36,251 nucleotides of DNA from Candidatus Brockarchaeota archaeon (GTDB taxonomy: Archaea; Thermoproteota; EX4484-205; JAAOZP01): the NCBI GenBank assembly GCA_017601395.1, contig JAFNIQ010000013.1, forward strand, positions 1-36,251, given 5' to 3'. The position numbers and the translations under genes were made by a program. The notes below the pieces were generated by a model. It did not search any database. It had not been told where the DNA came from and was given only the letters and a program-made list of their open reading frames with translations. Each line of letters begins with the position of its first letter. Position 1 is the first letter of the stretch. Positions 3,211 to 15,586 of the stretch are shown here, in pieces.

Positions 3211-3445
3211 TTTACGTCAGCCAGATACGCGTTCTTGGTAGCGCGTTTAAGCGAGGAGTTAGGTGCTGGGGCTTCTCGGGATAGGTGGAGCTTGACCGGT
3301 TATTGAAGGGGTGCTTAAGATTTGATAGTAATATGCTAGGCCTATGGACTTGTCTCTATTGAATATGCACTTAGTTGTTATTTAAAAAGTAAACTAGGTC
3401 ACCTTTAAAACACTTCTTAATGAATATTCAGTTCTCCTTGTTTTC

Positions 3446-4369
3446 CTAATTTCCTAGGCCTTGATAGGTCACGTCATATTTCCAGCCGGAGACCGATTGA
3501 TGTTCAAGATAATTATAGAAGTAATTAGCCGTCGTCTCTAATATCCATCTGTTTCCGCTCTTAAATTCAACCTCGATCAAAGCGTGGTTTACATTGACTG
3601 GGTCTGAGATGTGTTGTGCATCGACGTACCATATGTAGATTTTCATACCGTAGTTCATTAGGTGATTTCCCTCGATTATCATGCTTGCCATTAAAATAGT
3701 AGTATCTCCGCATTGTCCTCTGCCTTCAACCAGTGTTTCGACAGGCCACCTGTAATGGTCTCCAAGACCAGTTCCATAGACAACTATCTGATTCTTAACG
3801 TTATCCACTTCCCGCACGAATTCCTCATCTGTTCGGCCACGTGTCAACTCAAGTATAACATTGGAGAAGAATTTTGGCTCAATGTAGTTTCTCATGTCGA
3901 GAACTTTTACAGTAGTACCGTTTTTGAAGGATAGTTTTACATAGTCTTTGCTTTTCTCCCTGTTTACATATGCCCTGTACGTATCGATTGGAACCTGCCA
4001 TTTCAAGATGTTTCCCCTCATATCCTTGAATAACCATTGTATCGTTCCGTTGTAGATGAGGGTGTACGGGATTGTGGGAGAAAACCTGTATTTTTCTTGA
4101 AGCTTCTGATACTCTGCATTAAGCGAATCATACGATGCTAGAAGCGAGTCGTAGGATGTTTTTAGCTGCGTTATCTGGTATTGCAGCTGAGCATTGTTAT
4201 ACTGCAGGTTAGTGACTTCATTCCGAAGAAAATCTATCTGTTCCCCACTCACCCAGTAACCAAAGACTAATCCGGAGACTATGCCTGAAACAAATAGAAG
4301 TATCGCGATACTCAGCCATTTATAAGGTGGTGGAGAAGGTGACCTTTCATATTCTAAACCTTCCATCAT
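3446..4369 (-). CDS. Membrane-anchored transglutaminase-like protein
   Basis: A 307-residue protein with a short N-terminus, one transmembrane helix (about residues 18-40) and a coiled coil (about 45-95, rich in Gln/Leu/Tyr heptads). The C-terminal transglutaminase-like papain fold carries Cys220 in 'GRGQCGDTT' and His262 in 'VNHALIEVE'. The third catalytic position, normally Asp, appears as Glu278 in 'WILETT'. Topology suggests the catalytic part is extracellular. Archaeal members are usually considered proteases or amidases, and the substrate is unknown. The TATA-like box at 4391-4404 is about 26 bases from the ATG at 4369, so the message may be leaderless; the next codon is also ATG. It is monocistronic, between the vapBC module and a broken ATPase. 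Confidence 0.82.
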   Translation of the reverse strand: MMEGLEYERSPSPPPYKWLSIAILLFVSGIVSGLVFGYWVSGEQIDFLRNEVTNLQYNNAQLQYQITQLKTSYDSLLASYDSLNAEYQKLQEKYRFSPTIPYTLIYNGTIQWLFKDMRGNILKWQVPIDTYRAYVNREKSKDYVKLSFKNGTTVKVLDMRNYIEPKFFSNVILELTRGRTDEEFVREVDNVKNQIVVYGTGLGDHYRWPVETLVEGRGQCGDTTILMASMIIEGNHLMNYGMKIYIWYVDAQHISDPVNVNHALIEVEFKSGNRWILETTANYFYNYLEHQSVSGWKYDVTYQGLGN

Positions 4370-4390
4370 TAATCGTTAGAGATTAGCGCG

Positions 4391-4404
4391 CGTTATATAA
4401 AGCT
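4391..4404 (-). promoter_or_regulatory. TATA-like box of the transglutaminase-like gene
   Basis: AGCTTTATATAACG on the minus strand is centred about 27 bases from the ATG at 4369, implying transcription starts at or next to the start codon. Confidence 0.6.
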
Positions 4405-4846
4405 GACCATCGTTACGTGCTTAAAATATGGATAGACAGCTTATACTCTGTAGAGAATGGGAATCGAAGTATTATTCAGCAGCCATGCTGTTAGCATAGT
4501 GCTATGCGTGTGCACTAGACTATTTGCAGCCGGTGAATCACACCTATATTATGCTTACGAAAGGCTAACCAGAATACTGCGTGTCCTCTTAGTAACTTCC
4601 TTCTGCAATACTTGTGGAACAATAAATGTTAACTATCGGTATTATCAGTAACCAGGCTGTGGTATTTTAAACAAAAGGTGAATGAGCGCTTGGAGCATAG
4701 AATCAGTGGAGAAAGCGGATCCCGTGTGTTACTATTCCGAGAACATATAATTCCAATAAACTTCTTTTACCAAATAATTAATCAAGCGCGCGGGGCAGGA
4801 GGATTAGGAAGGCATGTCTTGTTTAGGCATTTCTTGAAGAAGATGT
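4405..4846. other. Intergenic stretch with no supported gene
   Basis: A 64-codon frame at 4457-4651 has no ribosome site, no TATA box at a sensible distance and no recognisable motif, so it is not called. A small inverted repeat (GCATAG TG CTATGC) occurs near 4493-4506. The stretch may be old decayed coding sequence, given the neighbouring pseudogenes, but nothing in it can be identified. Confidence 0.4.
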
Positions 4847-4874
4847 TTTAAAATTTATTAGTTACCTAGGTAAC
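4847..4874 (+). promoter_or_regulatory. TATA-like box plus 14-bp perfect palindrome at the start of the broken ATPase gene
   Basis: A TTTAAAATTTATTA box (about 4847-4860) is followed at once by GTTACCTAGGTAAC (4861-4874), a perfect 14-base palindrome ending one base before the ATG at 4876. The box is about 25 bases from the ATG, so the transcript should be leaderless and the palindrome would lie over the initiation region, where a bound repressor would block transcription. This is a likely operator; its protein is unknown. Confidence 0.6.
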
Positions 4875-4875
4875 C

Positions 4876-5855
4876 ATGTTGTTCGACCTCAAGCCTAAAG
4901 AAAGCCGCAGAGAGCTATTCGACAGGGATGAAGAGTATCAGGAGCTCAAGCGTCTGGTAGACTCAGGGTTATGGGTGGCTGTAGTTGGTAAGAGGATGAC
5001 AGGCAAGACAAGCCTGCTTAAGACTTTCGCCAATGAAAACAGGGGGAATTTACGTAAATCTGTTGGGTGCCAGAAGTATTGGGGACTTAGAAAATTGGCA
5101 GCTGAATCCGGGTTTAAGCTTGACGAGGTTGGCCTCGACCTAAAGTTCATACAAGTCAAGTGGAGCAGGGTCTGAGAAGACATTTTCTCGCATGTCAAGG
5201 ATAAGGTGGTTGCTTTAGACGAAGTGCAGGAAGTATCCTCATGTTATTTTTTAAAGGTTTTGAAAAGCGTTGGGATAAATACAGAGGAATAAAGCTAGTT
5301 TCCTCAGGATCATAAGTTGGGATTCTGCACAGGCTCTGGAGCCGAAGCCGGCTTCACCCCTCTACGGAAGAAAGCCCGCTAAACTCGTACTGAAGCCGTT
5401 CAGCCGCGAGGCGTCGAAAAAATTTCTTGAAAGTGGTTTCAGAGAAAGCTGTAGAGTCGGGGTAAGGAACGAGGAGATAGAGGAAGCTGTAGACAGGCTG
5501 AATGGATACGTGGGCTGGCTAACGTACTACGGCAACTTCAGATGTATAAGAAGGCTTTCTCACGACGAGGCTTTGAAGGAAACTCTCAGCGAAGGCTCGA
5601 AAATAATTTTAGAGGAACTCAATAATTTCCTGAAGGGGAGGAGAAGAGAGCTATATGTAAAAACGTTGAGGACAGTCAGCAATGGAGCCAGATGGAGCGA
5701 AGTTAAAAAACGCTGAATGCGAACAGCAAGGTGGTGAAAATAGTCTCAGAAACCCTTTGCTCCGCCATGATATAGAAGAGAAAGAAGGCTATTACTGGGT
5801 AGAGGACCCGATAATAAAGGAAGCCATTAGAAGAATAAAGAGCCGTTTAAAGTAA
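4876..5855 (+). pseudogene. Broken archaeal ATPase (PF01637-type)
   Basis: The first 99 codons hold the family N-terminus and a Walker A motif ('VVGKRMTGKTSLLK', about residues 36-49). An in-frame TGA (5173-5175) then interrupts, but the same frame goes on to a good Walker B ('KVVALDEVQEVSS', about 5203-5241). Further stops and frame slips follow near 5260-5320 ('YRGIKLVSSGS', stop, 'VGILHRLW'). Beyond them are intact pieces: 'PLYGRKPAKLVLKPFSREAS' (about 5357-5416) and 'GYVGWLTYYGN', then a stop at about 5714. A final piece containing 'YYWVEDPIIKEAIRRIKSR' ends in TAA at 5853-5855. This is the family's complete architecture with at least four lesions. The ATPase cannot be made whole, although the start region and promoter look undamaged. 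Confidence 0.88.
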
Positions 5856-10612: not shown

Positions 10613-10646
10613 TTAAGAAGCCTAGAGGAAGAGGTTGGGGAAACAT

Positions 10647-11867
10647 ATGGCTTGCAGCGGAATACCCCGCGAGGATAAAGAGGTTCTTCGAGAGCTTGGA
10701 AGACAGATAGTTGAAATCGCAGCCTCACCCCTTAACGAGGAGTATTTTGAACTTCAGAGAAGAGCAATTAATCTGGAGATGGTGAAGCCTCCGATCTATG
10801 TTTACGAGATTCCTTGGCATGAGATGAATGTTGACGATGAGCTAACGCTGAAAACTAGGCACCCGTTATGCAAGAGATATGAGGAGAGACTTAGACGTTT
10901 GATCTACAAGTGGAGGCACGGCTTAGGGGTGCTGGTGGACGATCCCCGTTTCACCAGCAGTCTGAGTCTAGAATCGGTTGTCGAGCAGCCGCTTCAGGAT
11001 TATGTTACCGACACTGGTATAGGTATTCGTGTCAAGGAGGATATTGTTAGGACTGATGAGAAGAACCCTGTGGTTTCCCACCGCTATCACGTCCAAATCA
11101 TGTCTGAAGAAGATATTGAAAAGATAAGAATGCCTCAAGTGTTTTTCGACGCGGAGAAGGCTGAGGAGGATTTCGAGAGGCTTTGCGAGATTTTCGACGG
11201 GGTTCTGCCTGTTGAGAAGCGCGGGGTCAGCGCCTTCTGGTTCACCCCCTGGGACGAGATCGTTATGCTGACCGGGGTTAAGGAGATCCTGATAGACATG
11301 TATCGCAGGCCAGCATATGTGCATAGGCTTGTTGAAAGAATGGTTGAGGCTTGGCTTCACAGGCTTGACCACTATGAGAAGCTCGGATTGCTGCGTGACT
11401 CTCCCATGAGGCTTTGGGGAGTTGGAGCAGCCCAAGCCTTCTCAGCCGTGTCCCCGGCTATGCATGAAGAGTTCGCGTTGAAGCATGAGAAGCGCTGGTA
11501 TGAGAAATGGGGGTTGAACTACTACGGGTGCTGCGAGCCGCTCCACAATAAGGTTGAAGTATTGAGGAGGAATATTCCCAGGCTGCGAAGGATCTCGATG
11601 AGCCCGTTCATCGATTTCGACAAGGCTGTTGAAAACGTGAGGGGTGACTTCATATTCGCCTGGAAGCCTAATCCCGCTGTACTGGCTGAATCAACCTGGC
11701 AGCCTGAGGCGGTTCGCCGGGATCTGGAGGAGAAGCTTAGCAAAGCCAAGATGTTTAACTGCGTGGTGGAGATCCATATGAAGGATATCAGCACTGTTAG
11801 ATATCAGCCTCAACGCCTCTGGGACTGGGCGAGAATAGCCTCTGAGGCTGTGGAGAAATATTTTTGA
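10647..11867 (+). CDS. Uroporphyrinogen decarboxylase-type (UroD-fold) methyltransferase-like protein
   Basis: About 406 residues, with the C-terminal two thirds matching the UroD fold shared by uroporphyrinogen decarboxylase and the MtaA/MtbA/CmuA corrinoid methyltransferases. Recognisable pieces are 'VSAFWFTPWDEIVMLTG', 'YGCCEPLHNKVEVL' (Cys-Cys about 295-296) and a late 'CVVEIHMKDIST'. MtaA/MtbA enzymes bind zinc with His-x-Cys and a later Cys. Here the first site reads Gly-Cys-Cys, so the metal set is altered. It is also longer than MtaA (about 340 residues) because of an N-terminal extension. Start: ATG at 10647, 6 bases after a GAGG/GGGG stretch, preferred over the TTG at 10635, which abuts that stretch. 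The next gene, an MttB-family methyltransferase on the same strand, suggests a shared methyl-transfer pathway, probably demethylation of a small quaternary or tertiary amine. Confidence 0.8.
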   Translation: MACSGIPREDKEVLRELGRQIVEIAASPLNEEYFELQRRAINLEMVKPPIYVYEIPWHEMNVDDELTLKTRHPLCKRYEERLRRLIYKWRHGLGVLVDDPRFTSSLSLESVVEQPLQDYVTDTGIGIRVKEDIVRTDEKNPVVSHRYHVQIMSEEDIEKIRMPQVFFDAEKAEEDFERLCEIFDGVLPVEKRGVSAFWFTPWDEIVMLTGVKEILIDMYRRPAYVHRLVERMVEAWLHRLDHYEKLGLLRDSPMRLWGVGAAQAFSAVSPAMHEEFALKHEKRWYEKWGLNYYGCCEPLHNKVEVLRRNIPRLRRISMSPFIDFDKAVENVRGDFIFAWKPNPAVLAESTWQPEAVRRDLEEKLSKAKMFNCVVEIHMKDISTVRYQPQRLWDWARIASEAVEKYF

Positions 11868-11878
11868 GCATGCTTAAA

Positions 11879-11947
11879 ATTTAACATTGGAGGAAAAAGT
11901 CTGCTTCATTTAAAAAGGCATATAAGTATTGATATTGAATGTTAAAT
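11879..11947 (+). promoter_or_regulatory. mttB-like promoter: TATA box flanked by a 10-bp inverted repeat
   Basis: ATTTAACATT (11879-11888) and AATGTTAAAT (11938-11947) are perfect inverted copies lying either side of a TATA-like GCATATAAGT (11918-11927). The second arm covers the expected transcription start about 16 bases before the GTG at 11964. This arrangement could be an operator pair bound by a dimeric regulator, or chance in an A/T-rich gap. Confidence 0.45.
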
Positions 11948-11963
11948 CGGCGGTGGAGAAAGA

Positions 11964-13412
11964 GTGAGGCTCGCTTTTAACAGGAGGCTGGAGCTGCTTC
12001 CCAGAGAAGGTGTTGAAGCAATAAAGGAGAACGCGCTGAAAATACTGGAAGAGGTTGGTTTCGCGTACAGACATAAAGGTGCTCTCAAGATGCTTGAAGA
12101 GCATGGGGCGATTGTAGACTATAGTAGGGAGGTTGCAAAGCTTCCCAGAGGACTTGTCCTAGATTGTCTTAAAAAGGCTCCTAAGCAGTATATTGTTGAG
12201 CCTCCGCAGGGTGATGCTGTATGCTTTGGAGACGGGAGCATAAAGGCCACTATGGGGTTGGAGATTCAACTCGTAGATTATGGTAAGATGGAGCGTCGCC
12301 CAGGCAGGACTGAAGACTGCGTGAAATCCATAACCGTCGGCAACGAGCTTGGAAACGTGGGTGTTGTATCCCCTTTCGTCGTGCCCAGCGACGTGCCCGT
12401 GAGGATGGCGGATGTGAGGGAGCATAGGCTCCTCTTCACATATTCGCGTAAACCGTTTTACGCCTGGATATATTCAGTTGAATCCTGCAAGTATATTCTG
12501 GACATGGCTAAGGCTGTGGCTGGGGGAGAGGATGAGCTTAGGAGAAAGAAGATAGTCGGCTATGGAGCTGAGCCTACGAGCCCGCTTCAGCTTTCGCGTC
12601 ACGCTATAGAGATTCTGATGGAGATGGCTGAGTATGGGCTTCCCATAAGCGCGTCAGGCTCCATGAGCCTCCTGGGAGGTACTGCGCCTGTGACAATAGC
12701 TGGCGCGTTAAGCCTGCATGCAGCCGAGGTTCTGGCAGGCATAGTTTTAGTCAATCTCATCAATCCAGACTCTCCCGTTGGCTTCTCAACGTCAATACAC
12801 GTTTTAGACCAGAGGACTGCCATATGCTCCTTCGGAGCACCCGAGAACACGTTAGCATCCCTAGCTGGAATCCAGGTGGCTAGGGAGCTTGGTTTAAGCT
12901 GCTTCGCCAATGTGGCCCTGACTGATTCAAACACTCCAGACTTTCAAGCCGGCTTTGAGAAGGCGGCGAGTAGTGCTCTGGTATTGGCAGCGGGGGCGGA
13001 GGGCATAGGTCAACAGGGGATAGTTGGAGCAGATCAAGGCGCGAGCCTTGAACAGCTTGTAATCGACAACGAGTGGTTCAACTATGTTAACCGTATACTT
13101 AAAGGGTTTGAAGTAAACCAGGAGACTTTAGCGCTTGAAGTAATAAAAAGAATCGGGGTGGGAGGCAGCTTCCTGAAGGAGCAGCATACTTTGAGGAAAA
13201 TGCGGGAGGAACTTTGGTATCCGAGCCTTTTCAACAGGGATGACTGGATAGGATGGGAGAAGAAAGGATGTCTAGACCTGCTTAAGAGATCACGGGCTGT
13301 CTTAGAAAGGATTATTAGAGAGCATTATCCTCCGGAGCCGGTTATTGACGAGCAGGTTATCAACCGGCTTTCAGAGATAGAAGCGAAGGCAGCCAAGGAT
13401 TTAGCAGGATAA
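11964..13412 (+). CDS. MttB-superfamily (trimethylamine methyltransferase-like) protein without pyrrolysine
   Basis: A 482-residue TIM-barrel methyltransferase of the MttB family, which moves a methyl group from a methylated amine to a corrinoid protein. The family's C-terminal block is clear: 'DFQAGFEKAASSALVLAAGAE' region, 'GIVGADQGASLEQLVIDNEW' and 'GGSFLKEQHTLRKMREELW' (about 400-418). There is no in-frame TAG, so it is not a pyrrolysine enzyme; it belongs with glycine-betaine-type and uncharacterised MttB homologues. The start is GTG with a GGTGGAG ribosome site 5-6 bases upstream. The adjacent UroD-type gene could supply the second methyl-transfer step. No corrinoid protein gene is in the window, so it must be encoded elsewhere if the pathway is complete. 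Substrate unknown. Confidence 0.85.
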   Translation: MRLAFNRRLELLPREGVEAIKENALKILEEVGFAYRHKGALKMLEEHGAIVDYSREVAKLPRGLVLDCLKKAPKQYIVEPPQGDAVCFGDGSIKATMGLEIQLVDYGKMERRPGRTEDCVKSITVGNELGNVGVVSPFVVPSDVPVRMADVREHRLLFTYSRKPFYAWIYSVESCKYILDMAKAVAGGEDELRRKKIVGYGAEPTSPLQLSRHAIEILMEMAEYGLPISASGSMSLLGGTAPVTIAGALSLHAAEVLAGIVLVNLINPDSPVGFSTSIHVLDQRTAICSFGAPENTLASLAGIQVARELGLSCFANVALTDSNTPDFQAGFEKAASSALVLAAGAEGIGQQGIVGADQGASLEQLVIDNEWFNYVNRILKGFEVNQETLALEVIKRIGVGGSFLKEQHTLRKMREELWYPSLFNRDDWIGWEKKGCLDLLKRSRAVLERIIREHYPPEPVIDEQVINRLSEIEAKAAKDLAG

Positions 13413-13580: not shown

Positions 13581-14588
13581 TTGACGCTTCCCGACGAAGG
13601 TATTCGAGAAAGAGCTGTTGAAAGAAAGATTCCGAGTCTTCGCGCCGGATGGTTTAAGACGGTCTTCTACATCGTTATACTTGGAGTCTCCCTATCGATT
13701 GTCGACATGATGTTTGGCTGGACCACCGTCGAGACCATCCCGCCGTACTTGCAGCATTTAAGTGGAATAATACTGCTCGTAAACCCGTATGTCCAGTATA
13801 TTCAAGCCATACTTATTTTCTGCTTAGGCTATCTTATCGTGAATGCTCTCAGCGGAGTCATGTATACGTATATGAGAAGATTTACGGACCATCCTACTGC
13901 CGCGACTGTCCGTACGTTGACTAGGATCGCTGGCCTCGCCGTCTTGCTCTCGCTCATAGCGTCAGTGTTCAACGCTAATCCTGCAGCCGCCCTAACCGTC
14001 GGCTCGTTCGGAGGACTCGTCGTAGGCTTCGCGACTCAGACCATATTGTCCAACGTGGTTGCAGGAGTCTTCCTATTGCTTTCCAGGCCCTATACTTTCG
14101 GGGATACGATAACCGTCGCCGGTCAGACCGGGGTTGTCAAGGAGATTAGGCTGATGCACCTCGTGTTAGAATCCACGGACGGCACTAGGGAGATACTTAT
14201 ACCTAGCGGGACCGTTGTAACACAGATTATTCATAAGATGAAGCCTCCCATGCAGGTTAAACCCGTTAAAACCGTGTTGAAACTGGAGACACCCCCGGCT
14301 AGGGTTAAAATAGGCTCGCCACTCGTGTTCAGGGGCAGGCTTCTGGAGGCTGAAACCGGGAAGCCAATTGCCAACGCTAAAATAATGATAATGGAGAGGG
14401 ATGTTGGAAGGGATGACTTGCTTGCTTCTGGTACGACAGGCGAGGATGGAGGCTTCGCCATTGAGTGGAAGGCTAGGAAGACTGATTTGGCTTCTGATAC
14501 TGCTGAGGTCTACGCGAAGTTCGACGGGGACGAGCAGTATCAGCGTTCTAGAAGCGAGCTATTCGTCGTAAAGATAGAGAGGAGGTGA
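13581..14588 (+). CDS. MscS-type mechanosensitive channel fused to an Ig-like domain
   Basis: 335 residues. Hydrophobic helices at about 25-48, 56-90 and 108-133 lead into the MscS pore helix and beta domain ('VGSFGGLVVGFATQTILSN', about 138-156, then 'LLSRPYTFGDTITVAGQTG' and 'LIPSGTVVTQIIHK', to about 215). The usual C-terminal alpha/beta vestibule domain is absent. In its place residues about 225-335 form an Ig/CNA-B-like beta sandwich ('RLLEAETGKPIANAKIMIME', 'TTGEDGGFAIEWKA', 'AKFDGDEQYQRSRS'), a type normally seen in secreted proteins. In MscS the C-terminus is cytoplasmic, so this placement is odd. Start TTG at 13581; a good GGAGG for the next gene overlaps its end. It probably releases osmolytes under membrane tension; the Ig-like part may replace the vestibule as a filter or assembly domain. 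Confidence 0.82.
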   Translation: MTLPDEGIRERAVERKIPSLRAGWFKTVFYIVILGVSLSIVDMMFGWTTVETIPPYLQHLSGIILLVNPYVQYIQAILIFCLGYLIVNALSGVMYTYMRRFTDHPTAATVRTLTRIAGLAVLLSLIASVFNANPAAALTVGSFGGLVVGFATQTILSNVVAGVFLLLSRPYTFGDTITVAGQTGVVKEIRLMHLVLESTDGTREILIPSGTVVTQIIHKMKPPMQVKPVKTVLKLETPPARVKIGSPLVFRGRLLEAETGKPIANAKIMIMERDVGRDDLLASGTTGEDGGFAIEWKARKTDLASDTAEVYAKFDGDEQYQRSRSELFVVKIERR

Positions 14589-14597
14589 GGATGCAGA

Positions 14598-14765
14598 TTG
14601 AGTACTGGGGGTAAAACTGTTAAGAATAGGCCTGTTTGCTTCAAGTGTGGTGCAGAGATGGTTTCGTTCACCTTCATCGAATATCCTTTGAGCGACAAGC
14701 TGCTTACGATAGTGTTCTGCAAGGAATGCGGCGCGGTTCAAGGCATAGTCGCTAAAGAGAAATAA
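14598..14765 (+). CDS. Small zinc-ribbon protein
   Basis: A 55-residue protein starting with TTG, preceded by a strong GGAGGTGAGG ribosome site 7 bases upstream that overlaps the stop of the MscS-like gene. Two Cys pairs, 'CFKCG' (about residues 14-18) and 'CKECG' (about 41-45), make a zinc ribbon; the ending is 'GAVQGIVAKEK'. It was missed by simple ORF length criteria. Ten bases separate it from the MscS gene, so the two are probably co-transcribed and translated together. No partner is evident; it could be a regulator or a small nucleic-acid-binding protein. Confidence 0.72.
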   Translation: MSTGGKTVKNRPVCFKCGAEMVSFTFIEYPLSDKLLTIVFCKECGAVQGIVAKEK

Positions 14766-14790: not shown

Positions 14791-14800
14791 GATTTATATG
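14791..14800 (+). promoter_or_regulatory. TATA-like box setting the creatininase start
   Basis: GATTTATATG lies immediately in front of, and overlaps, an ATG at 14798. Transcription about 26 bases downstream would begin at the ATG at 14822, which is therefore the better start (leaderless). Confidence 0.6.
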
Positions 14801-14821
14801 CTTGACAAAAGGATTAACCTT

Positions 14822-15586
14822 ATGGTTGCCTGGAATCTTCAGGAGTCTACGCTTAAGGATGTTAAGGAGTCAAGGTTTGAGGTTGCTGTCCTACCGGTTG
14901 GCTCAACCGAGCCTCATGGCCTCCACTTGCCTTATGGGATGGATTACTATCAGGCTAAGGCTGTTGCCGAGAAGGCTTGCGAGAAAGCTGTGGAGATGGG
15001 CGCTAAGGTGGTCATGCTCCCTGCCATACCCTACGGTTCGAACAGGAACTCGCTCGGCTTCCCGATGACGATAAGCCTCGACCAGTCGACGCTGAACATG
15101 GTTGTCAGAGATATTGTGGACTCGCTCGAGCACCACGGGGTTAGGAAGCTGGTGATTCTGAACGGCCACGGTGGCAACGATTTCACACCCCTGATGCGGG
15201 ACCTCTACGGCAGGACTGGGGTTTTCATCGTGACGGTCGACTGGTGGAAGACCGTTGAAGACGTTAGGAGCATTATTATAGAGGAGCCTGGGGAACATGC
15301 TGACGAGTTTGAGACGAGCATAGGGCTTGCCCTTTTCCCGCATCTCGTGCACATGGAGGATGCAGAGGAGGGCTTTGTGAACACTCCCAAGGTTAAGTCT
15401 CTAACCTATCCCTGGGCTAGGTTTACCAGACCCTGGAATTTTTTAACCATGAATTCCGGCTTCGGAAACCCGTTGAAATCCTCCAAGGAGAAGGGAGAGA
15501 AAATCCTGGAGAAGGCTGTAGAGAGGATTGCCCATCTTATTAAGGAGCTCTCTGACCCTGAGGTTAGCGAGGGTTTCCCCTACTAG
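14822..15586 (+). CDS. Creatininase-family metal-dependent amidohydrolase
   Basis: 254 residues from the ATG at 14822, which fits the TATA box; an ATG at 14798 would add eight residues but lies in the promoter. Family metal ligands are present: Glu30 and His32 in 'GSTEPHGLHLP', Asp41 in 'GMDYY', His116 in 'NGHGGND' and Glu162 in 'GEHADEFETS'. The family contains creatinine amidohydrolase, the FAPy deformylase ArfB of archaeal flavin synthesis, and peptide-processing relatives such as MftE; the sequence does not decide between them. It follows the zinc-ribbon gene by 56 bases but has its own promoter. A cytoplasmic cyclic-amide or formamide hydrolase role is the safe statement. Confidence 0.85.
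   Translation: MVAWNLQESTLKDVKESRFEVAVLPVGSTEPHGLHLPYGMDYYQAKAVAEKACEKAVEMGAKVVMLPAIPYGSNRNSLGFPMTISLDQSTLNMVVRDIVDSLEHHGVRKLVILNGHGGNDFTPLMRDLYGRTGVFIVTVDWWKTVEDVRSIIIEEPGEHADEFETSIGLALFPHLVHMEDAEEGFVNTPKVKSLTYPWARFTRPWNFLTMNSGFGNPLKSSKEKGEKILEKAVERIAHLIKELSDPEVSEGFPY

Follow-up and report, generated by a model that had tools for sequence, protein, structure and literature searches.

Canonical channels of the MscS family, typified by E. coli MscS (PF00924 plus PF21082), possess an alpha/beta cage and a C-terminal barrel in addition to a pore helix and a beta-domain. MscS channels without the cage are already known from T. cruzi, where such a channel is functional, and from microsporidia. The T. 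cruzi channel TcMscS is reported to be a heptameric, tension-gated channel with 478 pS openings and without a cage (PMC12334622), and its structures (PDB 9BGQ, 9BGS and 9BGT) stop after the beta-domain. The reduced MscS2 of Nematocida displodere has kept TM3 and the beta-domain and has partly lost the vestibule; TM1 and possibly TM2 are lost too, and it has no Ig domain (PMC11262690). From the archaea, the crenarchaeal MscS-like protein MSC of Thermoproteus tenax (TTX_1304a, 197 aa) inhibits growth of E. coli, an effect that is partly relieved by osmolarity, and carries no Ig domain (PMC3634074).

Here we analyze a gene of the window, that is, the whole stretch of 36,251 nucleotides of Brockarchaeota DNA under study, whose product shares the pore helix and the beta-domain with canonical MscS and ends in an Ig-like domain; neither the alpha/beta cage nor the C-terminal barrel was detected in it. 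We are confident that its architecture is that of a cage-less MscS-family channel with an appended Ig-like domain. For the whole explanation, a cage-less MscS channel that carries a cytoplasmic Ig collar, we estimate a probability of roughly 0.6, with architecture and location weighing most. In the literature searched, which comprised few subscription papers, no MscS-Ig fusion is described, and the archaeal family to which the channel part belongs is nowhere described as cage-less.

Architecture of the fusion protein

The features of the gene, together with the small gene that follows it, are collected in Table 1.

Table 1 Features of the fusion gene and its downstream neighbor, in window coordinates
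Feature	Position	Strand	Details or basis
MscS-Ig fusion gene	13581..14588	+	335 aa, TTG start, TGA stop
Extra N-terminal membrane helix, residues 27–46	13659..13718	+	Hydropathy, charge, model
Two membrane helices, about residues 61–93 and 114–130	13761..13970	+	Counterparts of E. coli MscS TM1 and TM2
Pore-lining helix, residues 134–168	13980..14084	+	Alignment to E. coli MscS, model
MscS beta-domain PF00924	14040..14231	+	Pfam
Channel-Ig linker, residues 219–230	14235..14270	+	Same length across fusions
Ig-like beta-sandwich, residues 231–333	14271..14579	+	Pfam, models, fold matches
Zinc-ribbon-like gene, 55 aa, two CxxC pairs	14598..14765	+	Motif reading; Pfam zinc-ribbon matches all below cut-off

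Pfam places PF00924 at residues 154–217 of the window protein (45.1 bits, cut-off 20.2), and the same family was present in all 21 relatives scanned. A PDB sequence search aligned residues 65–224 with residues 23–183 of E. coli MscS; the match begins at residue 65 and leaves the N-terminal helix without a counterpart there. Within the pore helix, which is Gly/Ala-patterned, G145, G149, F150, A151 and Q153 occur in 21 of 21 relatives, and residue 146 is L or M in every one of them. L146 and F150 align with L105 and L109, which form the hydrophobic gate in E. coli MscS. AlphaFold2 modeling of the full-length protein from a 21-row alignment reached middling confidence (mean pLDDT 77.5, pTM 0.42) and predicted four membrane helices, at about residues 6–45, 55–101, 104–129 and 134–168, followed by beta strands (176–208), a short helix to residue 220, a low-confidence linker (221–225) that is the least confident stretch of the model, and a sandwich at residues 231–333. 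Among solved structures, the channel model is matched best by E. coli MscS itself (6rld_A; Z 10.8, rmsd 6.0, 141 aligned). The first-pass annotation of this DNA, made from the letters alone, had called the pore and the beta-domain complete, and a pore helix and a beta-domain are indeed present.

The cage domain PF21082 (MS_channel_3rd) gave no Pfam match at E ≤ 10 in the window protein and is absent among the 25 of 27 families listed in the Pfam scan of the 21 relatives, and the PDB sequence search with the window protein left the cage region of E. coli MscS unmatched. The PF21082 model itself works, since it scores both in a paralogue from the window's own genome (L033; 26.5 bits, cut-off 21) and in an unrelated haloarchaeal MscS (49.8 bits). 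A second MscS paralogue of this genome (L031, 1192–1941; 249 aa) has a beta-domain and about 100 residues after it, and gave no PF21082 match at E ≤ 1; because of this case, a missing Pfam match alone is no proof of a missing cage, and models and tail lengths add support. In both models, of the full-length protein and of the Ig part alone, the C-terminal part is all-beta, without an alpha/beta cage. Structural modeling, which the first-pass annotation had proposed as the check on its claim that the cage is missing and an Ig-like sandwich sits in its place, thus returned no ordinary MscS cage.

The wider channel family and the spread of the fusion

A profile of the channel (A5) matched 343 of 398 sampled Thermoproteota genomes at E ≤ 0.001, the weaker matches including caged MscS. 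At E ≤ 1e-40 there are 141 match rows in 139 of the 398 genomes, whose open frames have a median length of 218 aa. In 133 of these 141 strong matches the frame does not exceed 260 aa; among the eight longer ones, seven are fusions and one (G018) is longer only N-terminally. The loci examined hold 58 channel matches, of which 13 are fused and have 111–125 residues after the beta-domain. Of the 45 unfused ones, 44 have 0–28 residues there; the exception is a weak spirochaete match (L094) with 103. We define the cage-less family by a strong A5 match and by a tail behind the beta-domain that, added domains aside, is no longer than about 30 residues, a definition that includes the window protein. 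The cage is missing throughout this Thermoproteota MscS family of ~210 aa, as it is in TcMscS, which matches profile A5 with E 3.5e-4. The Ig domain is therefore carried by a channel that had no need of the cage and, because the family already lacks it, was added and not exchanged for it. The idea of the first-pass annotation that the Ig domain replaced the cage accordingly stands in part: the cage is absent and the Ig domain occupies its position, but the wider family, already cage-less, speaks against a swap. T. tenax MSC resembles the family in length. No mini-channel was found beside tpsp, its neighbor in the T. tenax msc-gt-tpsp operon, in five stretches from f13 genomes, so T. tenax MSC is not tied to the cage-less Thermoproteota family.

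Full-length copies with 86–97% identity to the window protein are present in three other genomes of the same genus, and in 4 of 12 genomes of the class searched the Ig part is fused. A scan of GTDB species genomes returned 22 loci, made up of 13 fusions (L073–L085), seven Ig-less channels (L086–L092), one fragment and one weak spirochaete match; the scan was based on two short peptide patterns, and a spread outside Thermoproteota is possible. With the window included, there are 14 distinct intact fusions, plus one copy with a broken frame (G021). The intact ones come mostly from Brockarchaeota and Bathyarchaeota (nine), and also from records titled Thaumarchaeota, Nitrososphaeria and uncultured archaeon. 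A search for the same fusion in related archaea, suggested along with the original annotation, has thus yielded 13 further distinct intact copies. No relative was found in viral contigs, where none of 55 pattern matches was confirmed, and the Ig part alone had no match among plasmids at E ≤ 0.01. A match on a Haladaptatus plasmid whose alignment extended to query residue 334 turned out to be an ordinary caged MscS.

All 14 intact fusions are free of gaps between residues 204 and 256, and the linker is therefore of one length; in the alignment, unfused relatives end where the Ig domain joins in the fusions. Comparison of the window protein with three close relatives gave dN/dS values of about 0.06 for the channel and of 0.20, 0.10 and 0.11 for the Ig part; purifying selection therefore acts on both parts, more loosely on the Ig part. 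In the G021 copy (L005, 1468–2456) the channel is encoded in one frame and the Ig part in another, with the switch inside the linker, which may reflect a sequencing error, a real mutation or a programmed frameshift, all three being possible. This broken linker, and the fact that most of the genomes are assemblies from uncultured organisms, could be taken to mean that the fusion arose artificially when the metagenomes were assembled. However, the 14 intact copies are distinct, come from different assemblies and have a constant junction, and selection acts on the channel side as well as on the Ig side. We dismiss an assembly accident because the copies are independent, and its probability is negligible.

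The history of the fusion was approached with a channel tree of 52 rows (IQ-TREE, outgroup chosen by us), from which L013, L022, L030, L093, L094 and matches below 150 bits were left out. All 14 fused rows of this tree, the broken one included, fall into one group of 28 rows (support 100/99), which also holds 13 unfused rows intermixed with them; five changes are needed. Forcing the fused rows into one clade lowers the log-likelihood of a 31-row channel tree by 135, and such a clade is rejected there (p-AU 4.35e-5). It is not rejected on a 28-row Ig tree (p-AU 0.40), which is poorly resolved, with nine of 25 inner branches starred. Rejection by the channel tree but not by the Ig tree fits one gain and later losses, and the simplest reading of the two trees would be one gain followed by about four losses of the Ig domain; several independent fusions may also have occurred. 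One fused and one unfused member (L082 and L086) are close neighbors on the channel tree, and the three forward frames downstream of the L086 stop contain no Ig remnant.

A zinc-ribbon-like open reading frame, as found behind the window's fusion, also lies directly downstream of the fusion in L073–L076 and in G021, and the same motif search did not find it near the other fusions examined. This gene is not part of the channel and may be an operon partner of the fusion. Elsewhere in the window, positions 10635–13412 hold a URO-D (MtaA-type) match that is weak and falls short of its cut-off (15.5 bits) and then a clear MTTB methyltransferase gene (248.7 bits), which is without an in-frame TAG and is apparently not of the pyrrolysine type, and a creatininase-family gene (210.3 bits) is situated downstream of the fusion at 14798–15586.

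Fold, relatives and location of the Ig-like domain

Modeled alone from 14 rows, the Ig part reached a pLDDT of 92.8 and a pTM of 0.85 with AlphaFold2, and is predicted to form a seven- to eight-stranded beta-sandwich resembling Ig-fold structures. A structure search with the Ig part aligned 1000 chains, all at Z ≥ 5 and 361 of them at Z ≥ 8. The Nir2 C-terminal domain comes out first (9jtz; Z 11.0, rmsd 2.9, 99 aligned, 17% identity), followed by a CelAly domain (Z 9.9), MG4 of complement C5 (9.7) and PD-1 (9.1). At the level of sequence profiles, a lipoxygenase is nearest, through a stretch that is transthyretin-like (E 3.7e-5). Pfam matches over residues of about 238–328 remain below cut-off in the window protein, namely TTR-52 (PF01060, 21.9 bits, cut-off 24.9), CarboxypepD_reg (18.1 bits) and Big_3_5 (PF16640, 16.3 bits, cut-off 35.5); in the fusion L076, TTR-52 rises above its cut-off (26.3 bits) and Big_3_5 stays below (31.2 bits). 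The Ig-like sandwich of this part thus has no Pfam family assigned to it. The label "CNA-B type" that it had been given finds no backing in a Cna_B model, which is missing at E ≤ 10 from the window protein and from the 25 of 27 families listed for the relatives; as absence from the fold lists is no exclusion, Cna_B and other Ig families may still apply.

Two of these likenesses point toward lipids. The Nir2 domain, whose Ig-like part is the nearest fold, was solved with phosphatidic acid, and the Ig-part profile weakly matches C. elegans TTR-52 (E 0.17), a protein that binds phosphatidylserine. They would be consistent with the Ig domain being a membrane-facing lipid sensor that tunes gating. 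Yet other Ig-like folds follow close behind Nir2, at Z 9.9 to 9.1, a common fold says nothing of function, and the Ig subdomain of Nir2 may itself not contact lipid. The net charge of the Ig part is moreover near zero in most members (20 K+R versus 18 D+E in the window protein). We therefore consider a lipid sensor improbable.

The Ig family of the fusion was found by profile search in 41 of the 398 sampled Thermoproteota genomes, and 17 of the 30 returned loci were read. Reading identified the same Ig family on DUF1508 (YegP-type) proteins (L052, L053, L054, L058 and L060; DUF1508 in L053 scores 122.5 bits in Pfam), a combination that is an uncharacterised architecture in Thermoproteota. The family also occurs on two-domain proteins without an apparent signal peptide (L034, L056, L057 and L059), whereas its carriers in f7 genomes (L061–L069) have apparent signal peptides, signal peptides being judged here by reading of the sequences and not by a predictor. 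The separate two-domain Ig protein (in L034, region 3365–4967) is preceded in L034, L056 and L059 by a protein of 70–74 aa with hydrophobic stretches; in L034 it also follows a protein that matches Snf7 (ESCRT-III) below threshold (11.9 bits, cut-off 27.3). The next gene is a longer MscS-type one of 344–362 aa in three of the four loci (L056, L057 and L059), with a sub-threshold cage match in L056 (12.7 versus 21 bits); no MscS gene was seen near the Ig protein within the 9 kb of L034. Strict in-trans pairing of separate Ig proteins with mini-channels is not supported, as f14/g36 genomes show mixed combinations: the two occur together in G212 and G224, the mini-channel stands alone in G099 and G288, and the separate Ig protein stands alone in G056 and G265.

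Over 20–21 relatives, the K+R count averages 5.0 in the first 26 residues, against 0.2, 2.6 and 0.0 in loops 1, 2 and 3, a distribution that under the positive-inside rule points to an N-in, four-helix, C-in arrangement. The first-pass annotation had suspected an unusual topology, on the ground that such Ig folds are normally extracellular. Neither part of this holds up well: the charge bias fits an ordinary arrangement, the same Ig family is also found on DUF1508 proteins and on proteins without apparent signal peptides, and the closest fold among solved structures belongs to human Nir2, as the Ig-like portion of the C-terminal domain with which Nir2 binds lipid. Because relatives sit on DUF1508 and signal-peptide-less proteins, the Ig fold is no proof of an outside location. 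An extracellular C-terminal domain, comparable to the Ig folds of archaeal surface proteins, would require the channel to be inverted or to have an odd number of helices. The f7 relatives with apparent signal peptides would agree with such an arrangement, but the loop charge bias is opposite in the 20–21 relatives and the Ig part is free of cysteines in 14 of 14 fusions. The beta-domain directly before the Ig domain is, furthermore, cytoplasmic in solved MscS structures. An extracellular position is thus very improbable, and a cytoplasmic Ig domain is strongly favored by the sequence evidence.

A proposed cytoplasmic collar and its relation to known channels

As in the MscS family at large, seven subunits would assemble into a heptamer with TM3-type helices lining the pore, and membrane tension would open this pore and release solutes. 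By this analogy, tension gating of the fusion channel is somewhat probable, and the cage is unnecessary for it, because the T. cruzi channel opens under tension without one. With N- and C-termini inside, the seven Ig domains would hang as a ring below the pore mouth. We propose that this ring would serve as an optional docking or regulatory collar, not required for folding or conduction; "optional" since the channel family exists without the Ig domain, which has apparently been lost repeatedly. The collar might bind a cytoplasmic partner, bind the inner face of the membrane or screen the pore mouth, and such a docking or regulatory role for the Ig domains is put forward tentatively. A broader and more speculative suggestion is that a large, unrecognised family of cage-less channels exists in Thermoproteota, in one branch of which a seven-fold Ig ring couples tension to a cytoplasmic partner or to the inner face of the membrane.

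The ring could alternatively be a structural substitute for the cage, packing into a fully or partly closed vestibule, open at the sides, that stabilises the heptamer and filters solutes. The constant linker length in 14 of 14 fusions favors a defined placement of this kind. A truncation of the E. coli channel points in the same direction: MscS without both the alpha/beta domain and the barrel is reported not to insert into the membrane (PMC11262690), and loss of the cage is hence not always tolerated. Against a substitute, the wider family ends after the beta-domain with no further domain, the fused L082 and the unfused L086 are close on the tree with no Ig remnant behind the latter, and the linker is the part of the model with the lowest confidence. 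A structural replacement is therefore unlikely, and with modest confidence we favor the optional docking or regulatory collar over it.

Compared with E. coli MscS, the fusion has one additional N-terminal membrane helix and the C-terminal Ig-like domain. TcMscS, unlike the fusion, has only two membrane helices in each subunit and carries no extra domain (PMC12334622). Four PDB entries (9sdb, 9sdg, 9sed and 9seh) contain a "small-conductance mechanosensitive channel" of 171 aa that is matched by positions 62–211 of the 214 in the channel profile; this protein is cage-less by length, because its chain ends about eight residues after the matched region, and, judged likewise by length, it has no Ig domain. 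The DUF1508-Ig proteins of Thermoproteota share the Ig family with the fusion and carry two DUF1508 repeats instead of a channel. The closest fold to the Ig part, in the C-terminal (LNS2) domain of human Nir2, is likewise a cytoplasmic Ig-like part, in eukaryotes, but it belongs to a lipin-like lipid-binding module and not to a channel, and the likeness is one of fold. With its probable location, the fusion would clearly exemplify an archaeal membrane channel that bears an Ig-like domain on its inner face. Collectively, the Thermoproteota data provide a natural set of cage-less MscS channels, and pairs such as L082 and L086 offer a natural comparison, with and without the Ig domain, for the effect of a cytoplasmic attachment on tension gating.
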